Origin: Pseudobacteriovorax antillogorgiicola | Lineage (GTDB): Bacteria; Bdellovibrionota_B; Oligoflexia; Oligoflexales; Oligoflexaceae | Direction of reading: 5' to 3' | Length of the DNA stretch: 64,000 bases | NCBI RefSeq assembly: GCF_900177345.1 | Contig: NZ_FWZT01000005.1 | Span: 62,001 to 126,000 of the forward strand | Part shown: positions 7,582-59,784 of the stretch, in pieces | How the letters are laid out: each line of letters starts with the position of its first letter | Numbering within the stretch: the stretch's first letter is position 1 | The notes under the pieces: model-generated | The model's input: the letters and a program-made list of their open reading frames with translations, nothing else | The model's database searches: none | Told to the model about the DNA's origin: nothing | Translations under genes and position numbers: made by a program

Positions 7582-9363
7582 TTAGGGTTTTGTCCTATGA
7601 TGCTTGATGAACTTCACAAGCTTTGGAAACACATCGCGATCAGCAGCACGGCCCATAAAGATATCTTGATGGCCATAGCCGCGAAACTCTTCGTACTCCA
7701 CCTCACACTTATGGTTAAGTTGACGTAGTTCATCGTGAGTCTTTAAGTTAGAGCTAGGGAAGATCTTGTTATCTCTACCAGACACAAGAAGCGTCGGCGG
7801 CAGGTTCACTGAAGCTGCTGCATCCAGATAATTCCGAGGCAGGGCACGATGGGTGATGTAAGGTACCGCAGAACCTTCTACCACCATCTTTCGAATGTGA
7901 CGAAAGTAATGCATAGAAGTGCCTCCGAAAAGATCTGCCAAGCGGCTATGAGTCACAGGGCTTAGATTGCGATGTTGATAAGCTGCCGGATTCCCCCACC
8001 CCCACATGAAGCTAATCATATGGCATGCAGCAGCATCACACTCAGGATGGGTCAAGGATACCAAGCGACTCAACCATCGCCCTGGAGTATAGGGTGGGTA
8101 ATTGGGAAAGTCAGGGGAAATGTAGGTATACCGCAGGATGTATTCCATCACACCAGGGGCAAACAAGAGCTTGGCCTTGGCCATGGGGTGAACCGATGGT
8201 GACAGGGACACGCTATTCGATACAACACTTGCCAATCCCGCTGTGCGCCCACAGGCTAACGAGCACATAAGGGCAATTGAACCAACACAGTGAGCCACGG
8301 CATGAATCGCAACATCTGGCCCCACCATGTGGCGAATAGAATTGACTGCTGCAGGAATATCGTAAAGCGCTACATGATCGATGCTATAGCGATGAACTTG
8401 CAAATTATAGGGGAAACGCCGACTACCACGCCAATCGAGAGACCAAACATCCTCGAAGCCGTTGTCGAGCAGGTACTGCACAAAGTTATAATGCTCAGGC
8501 ATCATAAACATATCGGTCGAGGTGGTTAAGCCATGGATCAACAAAACAATATTCTTGCTTTTTTTCCGTTGAAATCGGGTCAAAGTCAATCCCAAGCCAT
8601 CCTTGGTATTGAATGGATGGATCGAGATATCCACGTCCTGGACCCCTTCCACCGTATTGGTAGGGATGATGTGCTTCTCCCACATCTCTGGCTCTGACTC
8701 CCAGAGCTTATCGCGATAGGGGTCCCAGTAGCGACGATACATCATTTCATTGAAGCGGCACACAGCATTGGATCGCAGCCACCGGCTGGGCCCAGAACTC
8801 CTATAGGTGGTCATCTGCTTGGCGAAGGCATCCTCATCGGTATCCATGGTGCCGCGAAACTTGGCGTTGTCAATATTGGGATCACCTTCAATCGAGCCTT
8901 CATAGATATCAAAATATAGGGTCGATATATCACTCCAGCTGACATTCTCAGGGCCACGAAAAAACTTTTTATAGCCGATCATCGTATATTTACGATCATC
9001 TGTTGTTTCAAACTGCGCACGATATTCTAAGATGCTTTGCCCTGCCAAGACGCGGTCGTGATAGTTGCTGGTCTTCAACACTATCTCACCGCTGGTCACC
9101 ATCATCCGCCCACCTAGTTTGGGACTGTCCACAGAACCAGAGATTTTCGCCTGCCCTTCCGGCTTGCGGATAAAATCATCGACATCGCTAATATTGATTC
9201 GAAACATGACTTTAATTTTATTCTTAAGCGACTGGCCTTGGTCCGCAGCATCCATATAACTTTGCGGCTGATCGATCGGCCCACGGGAGAAGCTTTCCAT
9301 ATTTGCATAAAACCCTCGGATTTCTTCACTGTATTCGAGGGATATCTTCTGACCTGCTTCCAT
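7582..9363 (-). CDS. Two-domain alpha/beta hydrolase with a cysteine nucleophile
   Basis: This 593-aa protein has an N-terminal domain (about 1-240) that resembles the region linking GMC/cholesterol-oxidase-type domains to esterase domains (FRGPENVSWSDISTLYFDIYEG). A classical alpha/beta hydrolase follows (about 245-590). The oxyanion motif is LLIHGLTTS. The nucleophile elbow reads A-H-C359-V-G instead of G-x-S-x-G, and the probable acid and base are D531 (SGRDNKIFP) and H565 (GYGHQD). The triad would thus be Cys-Asp-His, as in PHA synthases. No signal peptide or oxidase domain is present. The likely substrate is a lipid or sterol ester, but this is inferred only from the N-terminal similarity. 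Confidence 0.82.
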   Translation of the reverse strand: MEAGQKISLEYSEEIRGFYANMESFSRGPIDQPQSYMDAADQGQSLKNKIKVMFRINISDVDDFIRKPEGQAKISGSVDSPKLGGRMMVTSGEIVLKTSNYHDRVLAGQSILEYRAQFETTDDRKYTMIGYKKFFRGPENVSWSDISTLYFDIYEGSIEGDPNIDNAKFRGTMDTDEDAFAKQMTTYRSSGPSRWLRSNAVCRFNEMMYRRYWDPYRDKLWESEPEMWEKHIIPTNTVEGVQDVDISIHPFNTKDGLGLTLTRFQRKKSKNIVLLIHGLTTSTDMFMMPEHYNFVQYLLDNGFEDVWSLDWRGSRRFPYNLQVHRYSIDHVALYDIPAAVNSIRHMVGPDVAIHAVAHCVGSIALMCSLACGRTAGLASVVSNSVSLSPSVHPMAKAKLLFAPGVMEYILRYTYISPDFPNYPPYTPGRWLSRLVSLTHPECDAAACHMISFMWGWGNPAAYQHRNLSPVTHSRLADLFGGTSMHYFRHIRKMVVEGSAVPYITHRALPRNYLDAAASVNLPPTLLVSGRDNKIFPSSNLKTHDELRQLNHKCEVEYEEFRGYGHQDIFMGRAADRDVFPKLVKFIKHHRTKP

Positions 9364-9648
9364 GAAACCTCCCCACTTAGCCTTTTAAGACTCATATGTA
9401 ATATTATCAAGGGCGACGCAGCATAAATCAAACTTCCATATAAGTTCAAAAATACTTAGAATACCCCTAATTTCACCCAAGCAAATCGAATTTTGAATTC
9501 TTTCCTTAAAAAGTAAGCATCCAATCACAATAGTATATCCATCGATTTTCACTAAAATTTAAATTTTATTTTAAACAAATAAAAAATCCCACCGATCACC
9601 CATTCCGAGGTCGAAAGACCAATTTTGTTTTAGAGGGAGACCAAGAAT

Positions 9649-11370
9649 ATGAGACTGTTTGCCTGGTGGCGAATCATGCCGCCATTGGTCGCATTTTGTC
9701 CTTTTTTAGGCAGTTGCGACTCCACCCAACAAGTAGCAACCAATAAACGATCCGTTGTAGCTATCGAAGGCGATGTCCTCGAAGGCGACACCAATCAGGT
9801 TGCAGACAACACCAATGGCTTCACCAAAAGCTTTAAGGAGGGCTTTTATGTTCTGATGCAACAGAACTGTGGGGACTGCCATAACACCACAGAACCGACC
9901 TTTACTCATGCAAATAGCGATATCGCTCTCGATGTCACACGGAAGTGGATATCGCAAGCACCAGGATTCGAAGGTCAACCTTTGGTAAATTTTTCGGAGG
10001 TTCAGAAAAGTCGATTGGTAAGTATTTTGGCTAAGGATGCTCACTATTGCTGGAGTTCTGATTGTGGTAGCGACGCCAAGGCCATGGAAACGGCGATCAA
10101 AGTTTGGGACTTTCAAGCATCCACTGTGGAAACAGCAACATCTCCAAACGTAATCAATGATGATGTTGTCGATGACGATGTTCCCGATGATACTCCACCC
10201 AATAACGATGATACTCCACCTAATAACGATGATACACCCCAAAACCCTGATCCAGGTAACGGCGGGGGCTACGACGATGATGGCAGTTGGGATGGGGGAC
10301 ACGTGGATAATCCTTACGAAGACCCCTATTACGACTATGATGGGACCGGCTATGTACACATCGAAACGAATTGCGCCTGTAAGAATAAACATCAAATTTG
10401 CCACACCAAAGCGGATCTCGATATCTATATTCTCGATAAAGAAACGGGGCAAGCTCTCTGGGGTTGTGAGACTCACCGAGTGGTGATGGACAATATGTGT
10501 TCATTTACAGTCGTTCTTGGCAAAGACAAAAAGATACCTCTCGATGTTATCAAACGCCCGGCCAATTCTATGAAGTTCATGCTCACTGATGGTCGCGGCA
10601 AGCAGTATGTTCCCTTTCATGCTCCCTTCCATCACGGTCGCGTTGGCCCAAGAGGTTCCGAAGGCCCGAGAGGACCAAAGGGGGAAACTGGGTCTCAGGG
10701 ACCTCGTGGTTATAAAGGCGACAAGGGGGATAAAGGCGACCGCGGTGAACGAGGCTACAAAGGAGACAAAGGAGATAAAGGGGATAAGGGCGATCGCGGC
10801 TACTCTTGTACCGTACGCGGTACTACTCTTTACTGCGAAGACGGGACCATGGCAAACGTCAAGGGACCAAAGGGGGAAACTGGCCCAAAAGGCGACAAAG
10901 GCGACAAAGGCGATAAGGGTGAAAAGGGCGATAAGGGTATAAAGGGCGATAAAGGCTACTCTTGTACGATCCAAGGTTACACTGTGATGTGCGAAGACGG
11001 AACGTCAGCCGTTGTCCTAGGACCCAAAGGGGACAAAGGTGATATGGGCCCTCGTGGTTATCAAGGAACCAAAGGGGACAAAGGCGACAAAGGTGACAAG
11101 GGCGACAAGGGCGATAAGGGTGATATCGGACCTCAAGGACCTATGGGCCCTCAAGGAGAGAAGGGCGAAAAAGGCGACAAGGGTGATAAGGGAGATAAAG
11201 GTGATATTGGACCACAAGGACCCATGGGCCCTCAGGGAGAGAAGGGCGAAAAAGGCGACCAGGGAGAACCTGGGCCTCGTGGGCCTCGTGGTGAAACTGG
11301 ACCTCCTGGACCAGAAGGACCGCAGGGACCTCCTGGACCTCCTGGTGGCTCGGGCGACGATGACATCTAA
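9649..11370 (+). CDS. Collagen-like lipoprotein with a c-type haem motif and two Cys-knob interruptions
   Basis: This 573-aa protein has a lipoprotein signal peptide with lipobox LGSC (lipidated C23). A haem-attachment motif C74-G-D-C77-H78 follows in a small cytochrome-like segment (about 60-160). Next come an acidic linker with repeated DDTPPNN units (about 180-205) and a Cys-containing globular region (about 235-325). From about 335 to the C-terminus it is Gly-X-Y collagen repeats, dominated by GDK, GEK and GPQ triplets. Two near-identical 30-residue interruptions (GYSC...CEDG) carry cysteine pairs C387/C396 and C439/C448. The last part contains a 27-residue tandem repeat. It probably forms a trimeric stalk anchored in the outer membrane. 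Confidence 0.88.
11121..11270 (+). repeat. 81-bp in-frame tandem repeat in the collagen gene
   Basis: Two copies of an 81-bp unit start at 11121 and 11202. The second is incomplete and breaks off near 11270. Each unit encodes nine Gly-X-Y triplets ([20 protein letters not shown] and on). The copies differ mainly at third codon positions, so the amino-acid repeat has been kept while the DNA has drifted. Such repeats can expand or contract by slippage. Confidence 0.8.
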
Positions 11371-11416
11371 GAAGATGTATCGTCGTAAACACAGGCTTTA
11401 GGCAGGCAAACAGTCG

Positions 11417-11434
11417 AAGGCTCATTTGAGCCTT
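11417..11434 (+). terminator. First hairpin after the collagen gene
   Basis: A perfect 8-bp stem (AAGGCTCA/TGAGCCTT) with a 2-nt loop lies 47 nt after the stop. No T-tract follows, so it may stabilise the mRNA end or assist the next hairpin. Confidence 0.45.
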
Positions 11435-11454
11435 GGCTCCAGCTGAAAGTCACA

Positions 11455-11486
11455 GGAAGGGGGAAAAGGGCCCCCCTTCCTCTTTC
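11455..11486 (+). terminator. Rho-independent terminator of the collagen gene
   Basis: A perfect 9-bp GC-rich stem (GGAAGGGGG at 11455-11463, CCCCCTTCC at 11472-11480) encloses an 8-nt loop. It is followed by the T-rich TCTTTC. It lies 85 nt after the collagen stop codon. Confidence 0.7.
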
Positions 11487-11679
11487 AAAAAGATAGCAAC
11501 TTTCAATACTTAGCTAATTGTTTCAAAAACACCAGCATCTACCTTAAAGCAAGCCTCCAAAGGCTTTAGAGATTCCTACATCAGTTCAGTAAGTTAATTC
11601 ATACAATAAAGTCACAAATGAATTACTCCGTACCGATTTATAGATTTCAACACGACTCAGATTAGATGAGGTTCTATCG

Positions 11680-12606
11680 ATGAATTTAAGATTCGCGCTC
11701 GTATCATTCAGTGCACCAATACTCTTGCTTGCCAGTTGTGGAGGAAAAAACGGCAAAAAAGTTGAATACAAGCGCGATATATCTGGAGTCAGCGCTTACT
11801 TCTCTGACGATTTCGTTGATGTCAACGTCAACTCCAATAACCGTGATACCCCTCCTGGATTGCGTCTTGCAAGCCCTGACGCTTTTAAATATACAGTTAC
11901 CGGCTGTATCTCAGGATATGAAATTCTTACGGGTGATCAGGATGATACCAACTTCCAAGTTCAAAGTGGTGACGTAAACTGTGTCTTCAGGCTTACAGAG
12001 CTTACTGTCAACAGTACCGTATATGATCTTTCAGGAGTATCTACATGGAGTGGCGGTTCGGTGTTCACCGTCACAAACGGTGCCAACGAACTTCATGTAG
12101 TGGTCGCAAAGCAGCTACCGAACACCATTAGCGGGGACTCCAACGTTACTATTTCCTATGGAAGTCTCGGCCAAGGCACCGATGGTTCCATTACTGCTAA
12201 CCAAGGCACGAACCTTAGTATCTCCGGTGATAGCATCGACCTGGACCTAAGCAGCTCTTCGGCAACAGTCGATGGAGCCACAGGCAATGGTATTTTCACT
12301 TTCGACCTCGACTGTGATACAACTATCAGTTTAGGAACATGCAATAGTATTGACCTTGCTGGTCTGGTTGTAAGTCTGGACAACAATTCAGGGGGCAATG
12401 ACCTCGACCTAGCAACATGCCAAGCCCTTGCCCAGACAGGCGGCACAAGCTTGCATGTCGGAGCTGATGGGACAACCACGAGTTCCACGCAACAATTTAC
12501 CGGGCCGGGTGTTATGTTTGATACTGACTACCAGAGCCTAGTTCTCACCATATACGATGATACCAGCAAGAGCTGTAAGTATTTCAAAATCCAAATTCAG
12601 CCCTAG
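11680..12606 (+). CDS. Putative lipoprotein, beta-rich, unknown function
   Basis: The 308-aa protein starts with ATG, with GAGG 8 nt upstream. It has a lipoprotein signal peptide ending in LLASC, which predicts lipidated C20. The mature part begins GGKNGKKVEYKRD and is then almost entirely short Ser/Thr/Asn/Gly-rich beta-strands. Paired cysteines (near 76 and 101, then in CDTTISLGTC and later) probably form disulfides. It has no charged active-site motif. It sits after the collagen-like lipoprotein, separated by a terminator, so it is probably transcribed separately. A surface-exposed structural or adhesive role is possible but not shown. Confidence 0.78.
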   Translation: MNLRFALVSFSAPILLLASCGGKNGKKVEYKRDISGVSAYFSDDFVDVNVNSNNRDTPPGLRLASPDAFKYTVTGCISGYEILTGDQDDTNFQVQSGDVNCVFRLTELTVNSTVYDLSGVSTWSGGSVFTVTNGANELHVVVAKQLPNTISGDSNVTISYGSLGQGTDGSITANQGTNLSISGDSIDLDLSSSSATVDGATGNGIFTFDLDCDTTISLGTCNSIDLAGLVVSLDNNSGGNDLDLATCQALAQTGGTSLHVGADGTTTSSTQQFTGPGVMFDTDYQSLVLTIYDDTSKSCKYFKIQIQP

Positions 12607-12648: not shown

Positions 12649-13656
12649 TTAGTCACACTTCTCAGCCAACACCTTCGATTGGTCTTCGCTCGGACAGGCG
12701 ATAACTTCGTTGCCATCTAAGACAAGCCTAAAATTCACACTATCCAAACTGCTAAGGGAAAGTAAAGGCGTAATATCCTCGATTAAATTACCGCTTAGAT
12801 CGAGCTTAACAACTTGCGGAATGTTATCCACAAAACTCAGGTCGACGACCTCATTTGAGGACAAATCAAGTTCATCTAGCTTTTTAAGTTGAGGAAAACC
12901 TGAGAGGTCCGAAAGTTTATTGTTGGCTAGGGAAAGATAAGTTAACTGCGCAAGGCTTGCCTCAGACAAGAAGTCCGCATTTTCAAGATTGGCTCCAGCC
13001 ACCTTGAGCCGGTATAAAGAAGTAATACCTTTCACAGAAGATAAATTTTGAGCCCCATCCCCTGTGATATAAAGAGCCTCCAAGTCAAGTGCTGCAACAG
13101 CAGCCACATCAAGATTGCTTCCATCAACTTCTAACCACTTGAGTGCTTCTAGACTCAAAACCGGCGTGAAATCCGCCACGGCATTGCCTGCTAGTTTTAA
13201 GGTGGATAGGCTGTCTGCCATGGCCACTATCGGGTTTATATCCATCACTCTGTTGTTCGAAACATCCAGAAGCTCAAGATCTAGGTCGCGAACAAATGAA
13301 ATATCTTCGATCTCGTTGCCTTGAGCATAAAGCGATATCAGATTGGGCAGGCCTGAAACCGAACTCAGATCTGTAAGGCCCCTTTCGTCAAGCCATATTA
13401 CCGTAGCTTCACCAGCTTTTTCAGCCATGCCTTCACAGCTGTCGGCATTTAAGTGCTCCATCAAAGCATCGATCGTCTTTGCTACTTGTTCACTGGGAGC
13501 CTTTTCACAATCTTTATACACCGTCAGATCTTTCGCGTTGAAAACGACACTTTCTGGAGCGTTGAGGTTGAGATCCTCGTCGCCCTTGTTTCCGTCATCA
13601 TTTGATTTACCGCACGATATCATTAGACCGAGCAAAAAAAGAGTTGTGATTCTCAA
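12649..13656 (-). CDS. Leucine-rich-repeat lipoprotein (internalin-like)
   Basis: The start is a TTG at 13656 with AGGTAGG just upstream; the nearby ATG reads into a stop after two codons. The 335-aa protein has a lipobox ending LMISC (C15). An acidic linker is followed from about residue 85 by about ten LRRs of the bacterial internalin type, with L-x-x-L-x-L-x-x-N-x-[IL]-x-D units such as LDVSNNRVMDI, LSLANNKLSDL, LDLSSNEVVDL and LDLSGNLIEDI. A C-terminal Cys pair (CPSE...KCD) may cap the solenoid. It is probably a surface protein for protein-protein contacts. It is convergent with the preceding lipoprotein, 42 bp apart. Confidence 0.88.
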   Translation of the reverse strand: MRITTLFLLGLMISCGKSNDDGNKGDEDLNLNAPESVVFNAKDLTVYKDCEKAPSEQVAKTIDALMEHLNADSCEGMAEKAGEATVIWLDERGLTDLSSVSGLPNLISLYAQGNEIEDISFVRDLDLELLDVSNNRVMDINPIVAMADSLSTLKLAGNAVADFTPVLSLEALKWLEVDGSNLDVAAVAALDLEALYITGDGAQNLSSVKGITSLYRLKVAGANLENADFLSEASLAQLTYLSLANNKLSDLSGFPQLKKLDELDLSSNEVVDLSFVDNIPQVVKLDLSGNLIEDITPLLSLSSLDSVNFRLVLDGNEVIACPSEDQSKVLAEKCD

Positions 13657-21611: not shown

Positions 21612-22469
21612 CTACTGATAAGCTTGTTGTGCCTTAAGAGCAGAGTTTTTAAGCCATTGCCATAGAGCCTTGGATTCATGAGGACTAAAGTCAAACTGTG
21701 GAGGCATTAAAAGGCCCCGGGGCACAGCATCCATCTTTTGAAACTTTACATGGAGCAGAAGATTTTCGGGGCTTCGCTTCTGATAAATAGCCAGAGGCTC
21801 GACAAAATCCCAGCCGAATGTGGCTCCTACGGACCGAACGCCGTGACAATATTGGCAACGACTGGCAAAGATCTTCAAGCCAATGTCCGTTTCCGGACTA
21901 CTGTTAACACTAAACTGCTTTAGCCAAGACTTGTAATTAATCATTTCGATAGCCTCAAGACTTGTTGTAAAGCGAAATGGATTCAAGCCGGCGCGGTGAT
22001 CTTTAAGTGGAACACGATCGTGAGATATCACCAATTTATTAGTCGTAAAAACTAGAGGGCGAGGATCATTAAATCGCGAGTCCTTGCGCATCAGTTTAGG
22101 AAACGGCTGAGGATTGCCCTTTGGACCGATCATTTTTACGGCAATAAAGGGATCAAAACTATGATCTTGGATTAGAGCCATTGGGATAGGAACTCTCATA
22201 CCATTGCTGATATGAAGCAGGGCTGTATCTTTATTGCTGTCATAACTTTTTAGCAGGTGAGAGAGATAGTAACCCTGATAATCTGATTTCTTTTGATACT
22301 GGACATCGAATAGGTTTTTACTTATCAAATTCGGAATATCGATGGATTTCTGATTAACTGGCTTAACGAACTTTTGAAAGTGGTTGCCCTGCCCTCTCTC
22401 CCAAACTTTTATCGGTTGAGCGGCTAGGGACTCAGCAAAGGCAAGTAGCAACAATACGATGGGGAACAT
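21612..22469 (-). CDS. Exported monohaem cytochrome c-like protein
   Basis: The ATG at 22469 has GGAGG 6 nt upstream and starts a signal peptide (MFPIVLLLLAFAESLAA). The mature 285-aa pre-protein has a non-haem N-terminal domain (about 20-180), which contains a GNPQPFPKLMRK segment with an oxidoreductase molybdopterin/sulfite-oxidase-like flavour that I cannot confirm. A C-terminal cytochrome c domain follows, with haem motif C205-Q-Y-C208-H209. A Met in LLMPPQFDF near 262 is a probable axial ligand. The ending, typical of cytochrome c, is a helix with LWQWLKN. It should reside in the periplasm and carry one electron. The partner is unknown; no oxidase lies beside it. Confidence 0.8.
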   Translation of the reverse strand: MFPIVLLLLAFAESLAAQPIKVWERGQGNHFQKFVKPVNQKSIDIPNLISKNLFDVQYQKKSDYQGYYLSHLLKSYDSNKDTALLHISNGMRVPIPMALIQDHSFDPFIAVKMIGPKGNPQPFPKLMRKDSRFNDPRPLVFTTNKLVISHDRVPLKDHRAGLNPFRFTTSLEAIEMINYKSWLKQFSVNSSPETDIGLKIFASRCQYCHGVRSVGATFGWDFVEPLAIYQKRSPENLLLHVKFQKMDAVPRGLLMPPQFDFSPHESKALWQWLKNSALKAQQAYQ

Positions 22470-22552
22470 AAATAACCTCCAGTTAACTCTGGTAGGTATG
22501 GAGCAAGCTCTGTTCCACAATGGCTTACAATATATTTTCGCTAACTTAGACG

Positions 22553-22578
22553 TGCCTTGCGGTATATCCCGCAAGGCA
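22553..22578 (-). terminator. Terminator-like hairpin after pckA
   Basis: A perfect 10-bp stem (TGCCTTGCGG/CCGCAAGGCA) with a 6-nt loop lies 14 bp after the pckA stop on the minus strand. No run of T follows, so it may act with Rho or protect the mRNA end. Confidence 0.6.
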
Positions 22579-56997: not shown

Positions 56998-59784
56998 ATG
57001 TTGCGTCGCCCGAGCAATTGCTTCGCATTGCTATGTTTTATGTCGTCCTTTTTGCCGCTGGTCAGCCAAGGAGCTGAGTCCCCTTTCCATCTAAGGGTCA
57101 ATATGCTGCTTACCGAAGCCCCCAAAGGCAGCCTTGAAGCTCGATGGGGCACTGTAGATAACCGGGAAAAAGCCGAGACCGAGCAAATCCATTTGCTTGC
57201 GAAAGCCAAGTCGATGGCCGGCCGAAACAGCCACGTTCAGCTAGAAATCTATTTAGAAAACAAATCGGATGAGTATCTGGACCAGGTAAAGCTGCATATC
57301 CATAGGGCTAGCTCGGAAGATGATCTATTCGATATCACTGAAGATGCCTACACTGAAACTCCACTAACAGTTCCAGCTGTGATCGAAGTGAATCGGATGG
57401 CACCATTTGCTGTGCGCAAAGTCAGTCTTGCCGTAAGGAAGTCGTTGGCCCCGTTCATCCTAGGCAAGCTAACTTATCAGCCGTCACCTAGCCAACAGGC
57501 CCCCGTTTCTAGTAGCAACATCCTTGTCACAGATAAGGGGGACGAGCTATGGGCACTAGATTCCGAAAACCATCAGGTTGTTGTGTTCCGCCTCAGCGAC
57601 TATCAAGAAGTAGCTCGCATTTCGGTTCCTGAAGGCCCATCAAGCATCGCTTACCATCGAGGTTTGAACCGTATGCTTGTAGCATCCAGATTGGCGAATC
57701 AAGTGTCGATCATCGAACCGATGAAGAAGACGATCCTCGCTACCATCGGCGCCCAGGATCAGCTGGGTCGCGAACTTCGCGAGATACTAGCCTCACCGGT
57801 GGATAACAAGGCCTATGTCAATAGCTACGTGGAAGGCACCATCACTGAAATTGAGCTTAACCCCGATGGCCAGCTACTCAGCTTTCAAAGCCTAGAAATC
57901 GGTCCACGACCAGCAAAAATGAGTATGACCCATGACGGCTCTGAAATCTATGTCGCCCACTTTCTGCCTCGTGGCCCCATTCGTAGCAATGAGTCCTGGC
58001 TCAGCAATATCGATCGCAAGTCATTCAAAAAACTCAAGGACAGTATCATTGAGGACCACTTCAACCCCGATCAAGAAAATCTCGCATGCCTCGCAGACTT
58101 TTACAGCAACTATCCCCCTGCCAAGCTTTTGTTCGATAAAGTCAAAGCACAGGATCTAAGCCTAGAAGGTGTTGCTAGCCAACTAGCTGGTGTATTCCTA
58201 AGCCCATCGGGGGAGCATGCTTGGATTCCAGGCACTCGAATCACGGGAGCCCTTGTGGTTTTGGAAAAAGGACCAGATGCCGACCCAAACCTACAACGAT
58301 TCGGAGGGCTCCAATTGGCACAGTATGTTGCACCGATCATGTTCCCTATGCATGTTGGTAGCGACAAGCGGCTCCACGAAATTTACATCAACGACTTTGA
58401 GCTGGCGATTCCCACCCTCGGTAATATCATCCGATGTATGAATCACCCTTTAGAAATCGAGTTTATCGATCGTGAACTCAAGAAAAACGGTCGCGAACAG
58501 ATCAACCCCTTTCTTGCCTACCCCGTTCCGCAGGGTGCTCTATCTGGATTCGGATTGGTCAAGCAGATCAGCTTCAGCGAAGGTGGTCGCTTGGCGTTCT
58601 TACTAAGCCACAGTTCTGATGAAATAGCAGTCTATGACAATGTTGAATTTCATCCTGCAAGCCAGGAACACTTTCAACTATCTGGCTCAAACCCCAAGGG
58701 CATGGCTATTTCCCCAGATTATAAGCAAGCCTTTGTCCTGTATGAAAACTCACCGCACATCTCAGTCTTAGATATCAGCGCCTACAGCCGCGCCGCTGGC
58801 GACCTTCGATTCCCAGAGCAGATTCCCTACTACTACGGGCCAAGCCTTCAAAACCCAATTCAGCTGGGAAGCTTACCGAGCTTTCCTTTAAATAGAAAGA
58901 TCGACCAAGCTCCCTTAGAACCGAGGATCAAGGAACGAGCTCAACTTGCTCTTTGGAGCAAAGACCCTCTAAGCCCCGACTTGCGACGCGGTAAAATCCT
59001 GTTCTCGTCGGCCAATCCTGATAAGTACCCCGTATCTCAAAATCGATTGGGAGCTTGTGCTTCGTGCCACCCTGATGGTGGTAGCGATGGCTCCAGCTGG
59101 GTGACTATGGAAGGGTCGCGGCGAACCATGTCCTTACGTGGCGGCGTCAAAGATCGCGGCTGGCTTCACATCAGCGCGACACACAAGGATGCCCACGAGT
59201 TCGTCGAACTTGTTGTAAAAGAGCGCCTTGGAGGAAAGCTAAACAAGGACGATCTTAGAAACCTCAGCCTTTACCTTGACGAAGGCATCCCCAAGCTCCA
59301 AAACCCCAGAGTGAATCAAGAACTCGCGGCACAAGGCCAGTTGCTTTTCCAGCAAAAATGCCAATTCTGCCACCAAGGACCAGCCTATACCAGTGGCCAC
59401 CTCACTATGGGCGAGGAGCCAGCCCTCTATAACCTAGGAACAGGCAACCTTGATCATGGCGTCGGCTCCGGGAAGTTTTTTAGTACACTGATCGGCATCA
59501 GCGACTCCGCATCTCAAGAAATCATGGAAGCATTGCTAGGCGATCGTCGCCTGGGACCTGGAGACCCTATCCAAGAGATCTTAGACTTCCGCCAACGTCC
59601 GGTTCGCGAAATCGGGCAGTTCAAGGCTCCCAGCCTCGTGAACACCTTTGACTATTCGATCTATCTGCATGATGGCTCAGCAGCTAGCTTGAAAGATGCT
59701 ATCAAAGCCATTGCCGCAAAGCTAAATTACCAGCTCAAAGATGACGAAGTTGATGCTCTAGAGGCTTACCTAAAAACTCTTTAA
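56998..59784 (+). CDS. Exported beta-propeller/MauG-like dihaem protein
   Basis: The 928-aa protein has an AGAGG site 7 nt before the ATG and a signal peptide (about 1-26, ending SQGA). After an N-terminal beta domain (about 30-160) comes a beta-propeller of YVTN type (about 170-620; for example DELWALDSENHQVVVFRLSDY, PSSIAYHRGLNRMLVASRLANQVSIIE, FLLSHSSDEIAVYDN). The C-terminal part is a dihaem MauG/CcpA-type module with C687-A-S-C690-H and C788-Q-F-C791-H, and the typical FKAPSLVNTFDYSIYLHDGSAASLKDAI. It should bind two haems in the periplasm and may oxidise a partner using peroxide or quinone-linked electrons. The substrate is unknown. Confidence 0.88.
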   Translation: MLRRPSNCFALLCFMSSFLPLVSQGAESPFHLRVNMLLTEAPKGSLEARWGTVDNREKAETEQIHLLAKAKSMAGRNSHVQLEIYLENKSDEYLDQVKLHIHRASSEDDLFDITEDAYTETPLTVPAVIEVNRMAPFAVRKVSLAVRKSLAPFILGKLTYQPSPSQQAPVSSSNILVTDKGDELWALDSENHQVVVFRLSDYQEVARISVPEGPSSIAYHRGLNRMLVASRLANQVSIIEPMKKTILATIGAQDQLGRELREILASPVDNKAYVNSYVEGTITEIELNPDGQLLSFQSLEIGPRPAKMSMTHDGSEIYVAHFLPRGPIRSNESWLSNIDRKSFKKLKDSIIEDHFNPDQENLACLADFYSNYPPAKLLFDKVKAQDLSLEGVASQLAGVFLSPSGEHAWIPGTRITGALVVLEKGPDADPNLQRFGGLQLAQYVAPIMFPMHVGSDKRLHEIYINDFELAIPTLGNIIRCMNHPLEIEFIDRELKKNGREQINPFLAYPVPQGALSGFGLVKQISFSEGGRLAFLLSHSSDEIAVYDNVEFHPASQEHFQLSGSNPKGMAISPDYKQAFVLYENSPHISVLDISAYSRAAGDLRFPEQIPYYYGPSLQNPIQLGSLPSFPLNRKIDQAPLEPRIKERAQLALWSKDPLSPDLRRGKILFSSANPDKYPVSQNRLGACASCHPDGGSDGSSWVTMEGSRRTMSLRGGVKDRGWLHISATHKDAHEFVELVVKERLGGKLNKDDLRNLSLYLDEGIPKLQNPRVNQELAAQGQLLFQQKCQFCHQGPAYTSGHLTMGEEPALYNLGTGNLDHGVGSGKFFSTLIGISDSASQEIMEALLGDRRLGPGDPIQEILDFRQRPVREIGQFKAPSLVNTFDYSIYLHDGSAASLKDAIKAIAAKLNYQLKDDEVDALEAYLKTL

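Follow-up and report, generated by a model that had tools for sequence, protein, structure and literature searches.

Most bacterial collagen-like proteins that have been studied form fibres on the cell surface and serve in adhesion or matrix (PMC4565658, PMC8968730, PMC6460258). In Legionella Lcl, streptococcal Scl1 and Scl2, and Burkholderia Bucl3 and Bucl8, a Gly-X-Y rod is combined with an anchor and a separate folded domain. Bucl8 is a predicted lipoprotein, and interruptions of the rod are already known in these proteins (PMC4565658, PMC8968730). No reference to heme was found in the Bucl survey text. A different precedent is TfcP, a noncanonical cytochrome c from Myxococcus xanthus that supports PilY1 without electron transport. 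The stability of TfcP depends on haem binding and its function is tied to a calcium-dependent adhesin (PMC8833165).

The window analysed here is a stretch of 64,000 nucleotides from Pseudobacteriovorax antillogorgiicola (contig NZ_FWZT01000005.1, positions 62,001 to 126,000). It contains a gene for a 573-residue protein that has the rod, the separate folded domain and the anchor of the proteins above and is, like Bucl8, a predicted lipoprotein, but its folded domains differ from those of the Lcl, Scl and Bucl proteins. The NCBIfam Lcl/Scl models scored far below their cut-offs (118.7 against 500, 114.4 against 325 and 112.6 against 400). A search of 56 related genomes with the N-terminal domain returned one strong relative (E 2.3e-35), which is encoded by a Pseudobacteriovorax MAG (Pseudobacteriovorax sp. 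DT_89, JABSRP010000015.1; G001 below). The features of the locus are as follows.

9649..11370, + strand: collagen-like lipoprotein gene, an intact single open reading frame of 573 amino acids
9649..9717, + strand: predicted signal peptide and lipobox with a putatively lipidated Cys23, from the sequence and an aligned Cys in the G001 relative
9817..10119, + strand: c-type haem-like domain, residues 57-157 (21-member alignment; AlphaFold2 mean pLDDT 92.7; absent from Pfam and NCBIfam)
9868..9882, + strand: CxxCH motif, C74 G D C77 H78, invariant in 21/21 copies
10042..10065, + strand: H132-x-C134....C139, candidate distal haem ligand and adjacent disulfide, with H and first C invariant in 21/21 copies
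10120..10329, + strand: acidic linker, residues 158-227, with 20 Asp/Glu in 70 residues and no Lys or Arg
10330..10635, + strand: four-Cys beta domain, residues 228-329 (C242, C244, C251, C284), from a 17-member alignment and an AlphaFold2 model (pLDDT 87)
10636..10806, + strand: Gly-X-Y block 1, residues 330-386, 19 triplets
10807..10863, + strand: knob 1, 19 residues, C387-X8-C396-EDGT, from the sequence
10864..10962, + strand: Gly-X-Y block 2, residues 406-438, 11 triplets
10963..11019, + strand: knob 2, 19 residues, C439-X8-C448-EDGT, from the sequence
11020..11355, + strand: Gly-X-Y block 3, residues 458-569, ending GPPGPPG, counted as 38 triplets
11454..11481, + strand: terminator-like hairpin 3' of the collagen-like gene (z -3.75)

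A preliminary description of this DNA had given the coordinates, the lipobox, the CxxCH at C74-H78, the acidic linker and the Gly-X-Y region with two CX8C interruptions, all of which are borne out by the 573-residue sequence. It had missed the four-Cys domain and the H132-C134...C139 motif of the CxxCH domain.

Collagen (PF01391) is the only Pfam family above its cut-off in the protein, with 121.4 bits against a cut-off of 27.2 (E 1.3e-35). The three Gly-X-Y blocks hold 68 counted triplets and are predicted to form a triple helix, and the trimeric stalk proposed earlier is well founded on these blocks. The further proposal that disulfides lock the trimers is doubtful. Both knobs come after GYS and share 68% identity across 25 residues, and each C-X8-C pair is more easily read as an intrachain hairpin, which is the simpler arrangement. 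Two other assignments of the knobs were rejected: DUF7151 is unmatched in the protein, and a widespread module is not indicated by a profile that finds five copies in the window protein and the G001 relative plus a few weak short matches. The same genome encodes more collagen-like proteins (L010, L011, L012, L013 and L015). Looser Cys-Cys inserts are present in collagen paralogues, and in L010, L012 and L013 they lie within or ahead of the Gly-X-Y region; L013 and L010 are near-identical across most of their length.

The domain that precedes the collagen is about 100 residues long and its model is beta-rich. Its four cysteines are invariant in 17 aligned copies. Relatives of this domain were found as 18 matches in 8 of 56 genomes, and Gly-X-Y follows directly in 17/17 copies with visible flanks, while the eighteenth stops at a contig end. 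This constant place ahead of Gly-X-Y regions that differ widely in length is expected of a domain that nucleates and registers a trimer, and the four-Cys domain probably nucleates the trimer in the window protein. No Pfam family and no PDB sequence match was found for it, and a comparison of its model with PDB and viral folds gave weak beta-sandwich matches (best E ~0.04, TM < 0.45). C273 (window 10465-10467, in WGCETH) is conserved in no aligned relative and is the only cysteine without an evident partner; it is likely unpaired and available for interchain bonding. Two convergent collagen-like genes on contig C21 of the same genome (L009; 2444-5173 on the + strand and 8156-11722 on the - strand, frames of 910 and 1189 amino acids) are very long; both of their proteins contain the four-Cys domain, and the C-terminal region of each is not collagen. 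In G001 a shorter relative of the gene at 8156-11722 is present (L041).

The preliminary description had raised the possibility that the haem motif is accidental and pointed to close relatives for an answer. CGDCH at residues 74-78 is the sole CxxCH in the protein. When residues 24-332 were shuffled, a CxxCH arose by chance in 0.8% of cases, so that composition alone is insufficient and conservation decides. The two Cys and the His of the motif, along with the His and Cys of the second motif (HYCWSSDC at 132-139), are invariant in all 21 aligned copies, in which the rest of the domain falls to ~20-30% identity. The full-length G001 relative keeps C74, C77, H78, H132, C134, W135 and C139. A chance CxxCH is ruled out by this conservation and by the recurrence of the same combination in a second genome.

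The HxC cysteine has a partner Cys 3-8 residues later in 21/21 copies, and this constant pairing is best explained by a disulfide between the two. With these cysteines taken up, the CxxCH and one distal His are left, the set of ligands expected for a c-type haem. We infer a covalent haem c on this domain, possibly with His/His ligation and probably with H132 as the distal ligand. Across the domain family the proximal His and the HxC His, as putative ligands, are 39-61 residues apart. Canonical cytochromes c place a Met or His ~60 residues on (PMC8833165).

The AlphaFold2 model of the domain is confident and all-helical. A helix at model residues 2-22 ends in CxxCH, helices follow at 34-46 and 66-72, and a loop with the conserved His leads to a C-terminal helix at 83-100. 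Class I cytochromes c show the same order of elements. The domain resembles the class I families Cytochrom_C and Cytochrome_CBB3 in the N-terminal helix that ends in CxxCH and in the conserved candidate axial ligand ahead of the C-terminal helix. It differs from them in having His for the usual Met and an adjacent disulfide, and its family and fold matches are not significant. Foldseek of the model against the PDB returned zero similar solved structures, and a PDB sequence search gave weak matches only, the best (E 0.01) being to haem subunits of flavocytochrome c around the CxxCH. An established Pfam or NCBIfam cytochrome was rejected as an assignment, with no match above cut-off and Pfam cytochrome matches at E >= 0.037. 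Compared by profile with 16 local cytochromes c, the domain gave 67.8% around the CxxCH, over 13 columns only (control 0.1%). Homology to cytochromes c is thus not shown, and the domain is called haem-c-like by its motif, with no claim of membership in the cytochromes c.

Since no fold match to any cytochrome was found and no member scores above the cut-off of a Pfam cytochrome family, it could be argued that the domain is haem-free, a structural or binding module in which Cys, Cys, His and His hold zinc or the cysteines are disulfide-bonded. A set of two Cys and two His would be well suited to binding a metal. We consider this reading unlikely, as the CxxCH is exact in every aligned copy despite the divergence around it, and the other conserved Cys is always partnered, which leaves exactly the haem-type ligand set. 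The maturation system also stands against it. CcmF is encoded in the genome and ResB was looked for there and is absent, so System I maturation is available and c-type haem attachment is plausible. System I puts haem on exported CxxCH motifs with little further specificity.

The CxxCH domain (~95 residues) is not confined to collagen-like proteins. A profile search across 58 genomes of the phylum found 23-26 copies in 15-17 of them, mostly N-terminal in other lipoproteins, behind the lipobox. Lipoproteins of the same phylum with CxxCH and HNCW (for example L017, L018, L020 and L063) have the same haem-like domain in this position, but other extracellular regions without Gly-X-Y come after it. 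Two more copies occur in the genome of P. antillogorgiicola itself. Among 21 reading frames inspected, some cut by contig ends, collagen follows the domain only in the window protein and its G001 relative. In a domain tree these two copies group together (100/100), apart from the other copies within the same taxonomic family.

The G001 protein has 647 residues and all parts in the same order. It is 58% identical to the window protein overall, with 52% in the haem domain, 37% in the linker, 67% in the four-Cys domain and 70% in the collagen with knobs, of which it has three against two in the window protein. Orthologues were found in four genomes of the same family (G002, G004, G005 and G006; Oligoflexus, Oligoflexaceae and unplaced Proteobacteria MAGs). 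A lipobox, a linker of low complexity and a four-Cys domain with 46-52% identity to that of the window protein are retained in them, but the CxxCH domain is missing from all four, and the knobs are missing from 3/3 with visible collagen, the collagen of G005 being cut at a contig end. Some of these genomes have the CxxCH domain in other lipoproteins. Because the sister orthologues are without the haem domain, and without knobs where visible, both are lineage-specific and the collagen part does not require them. In comparison with the sister (Oligoflexus-like) genus, the haem domain and the knobs were either acquired jointly or lost jointly. The idea of a haem head on a collagen stalk is supported by the conserved motif and weakened by the lack of the haem domain in the four sister orthologues.

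TfcP suggests what such a domain may do. Like TfcP, the window protein would have a single-haem cytochrome-type domain tied to an adhesin system and not to respiration. It is possible, and we regard it tentatively as a variant of the surface-fibre explanation, that the haem is a cofactor for the stability or assembly of an adhesin. The TfcP precedent (PMC8833165) and the acidic, potentially calcium-binding linker after the haem domain are consistent with this proposal. However, TfcP is a separate, soluble periplasmic protein with a distal Cys where the window protein has His, and it has neither a fused domain nor a collagen fusion. Residues 175-223 of the G001 protein (L019) contain eight Cys in the acidic linker, and the linker of the window protein has zero.

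The lipobox reads FLGS then C23 in the window protein and ILTAC in the G001 relative, by inspection and alignment, and export and lipidation of the protein are predicted from it. An outer-membrane location, as claimed earlier, is not established. The residue following C23 is Asp, and Asp after the lipidated Cys in E. coli favours inner-membrane retention, although the rules vary between taxa; in E. coli terms this argues against the outer membrane. The length of the rod argues for surface exposure. The Gly-X-Y rise is 0.29 nm per residue, which for 204 Gly-X-Y residues predicts a rod of ~59 nm. A rod of this length would be unable to stand upright in the periplasm, and therefore the collagen-like fibre is likely exposed on the cell surface.

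The gene is preceded by a ribosome-binding-like GAGGGAG at 9633-9639, and its upstream neighbour is an alpha/beta hydrolase gene on the opposite strand. Downstream, a gene for a lipoprotein-like protein (11680-12606, 308 amino acids, with zero matches in Pfam and NCBIfam) begins 310 bases past the collagen-like gene, with the hairpin in between. The collagen-like gene appears to stand by itself. An EamA-type transporter gene lies close by in the window and in G001 alike. No redox partner, adhesion operon or pathway-suggesting partner gene was found among the neighbours, and plasmid records searched gave no match. Other genes in the window encode a leucine-rich-repeat protein with a lipobox-like N-terminus (12649-13656, - strand), a protein with a weak Cytochrome_CBB3 match that adjoins an ATP-type PEP carboxykinase gene (21612-22574, - strand), and a 928-residue protein that weakly matches a lactonase-like beta-propeller and has a cytochrome c motif in its C-terminal part (56998-59784).

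A haem motif and many cysteines within one surface protein, in a genome with many cytochromes (25 Cytochrome_CBB3 matches), could suggest a redox device in which haem stalks exchange electrons with outside acceptors, or in which a peroxidase or oxygen sensor controls the knobs. This is highly improbable. Each chain would have a single haem, placed near the membrane, which makes conduction along the ~60 nm rod impossible, the immediate neighbours examined include no recognised multihaem or porin-cytochrome partners, and the coupling of haem and knobs in relatives is a shared presence and nothing more. A related proposal, that the haem-c domain and the knobs form a redox-responsive fibre whose state follows surface peroxide or oxygen sensed or used by the haem, is given very little credence. 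A redox role for the haem domain is possible, and unsupported.

The explanation that we favour, with somewhat better than even confidence, is a homotrimeric collagen-like fibre on the cell surface, held by a lipid anchor and bearing a haem-c domain at the base, that most likely acts as an adhesin or matrix element, like other bacterial collagen-like proteins. Cys23 would be lipidated and anchor the fibre in the membrane. The domain next to the membrane would bear one covalent c-type haem with H132 as distal ligand and a C134-C139 disulfide, and the acidic linker would be a flexible spacer. The four-Cys domain would gather three chains and fix their register, and the Gly-X-Y rod, its helix broken by two disulfide hairpin knobs, would end in a GPP-rich cap. 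The haem domain may be an added, lineage-specific base module that is stabilising and possibly redox- or peroxidase-active.

As judged from sequence, the protein is a collagen-like lipoprotein that combines a predicted haem-c domain with a domain newly proposed for trimerisation; its conserved haem motif is meaningful and a redox head unproven. No collagen-like and cytochrome fusion was noticed in the literature searched with both terms combined, and in this natural, conserved fusion a bacterial collagen is paired with a domain predicted to carry c-type haem. It exposes two apparently undescribed domains, the CxxCH haem-like domain and the four-Cys domain. The latter, a candidate trimerisation domain new to bacterial collagens, could be useful for recombinant collagens.
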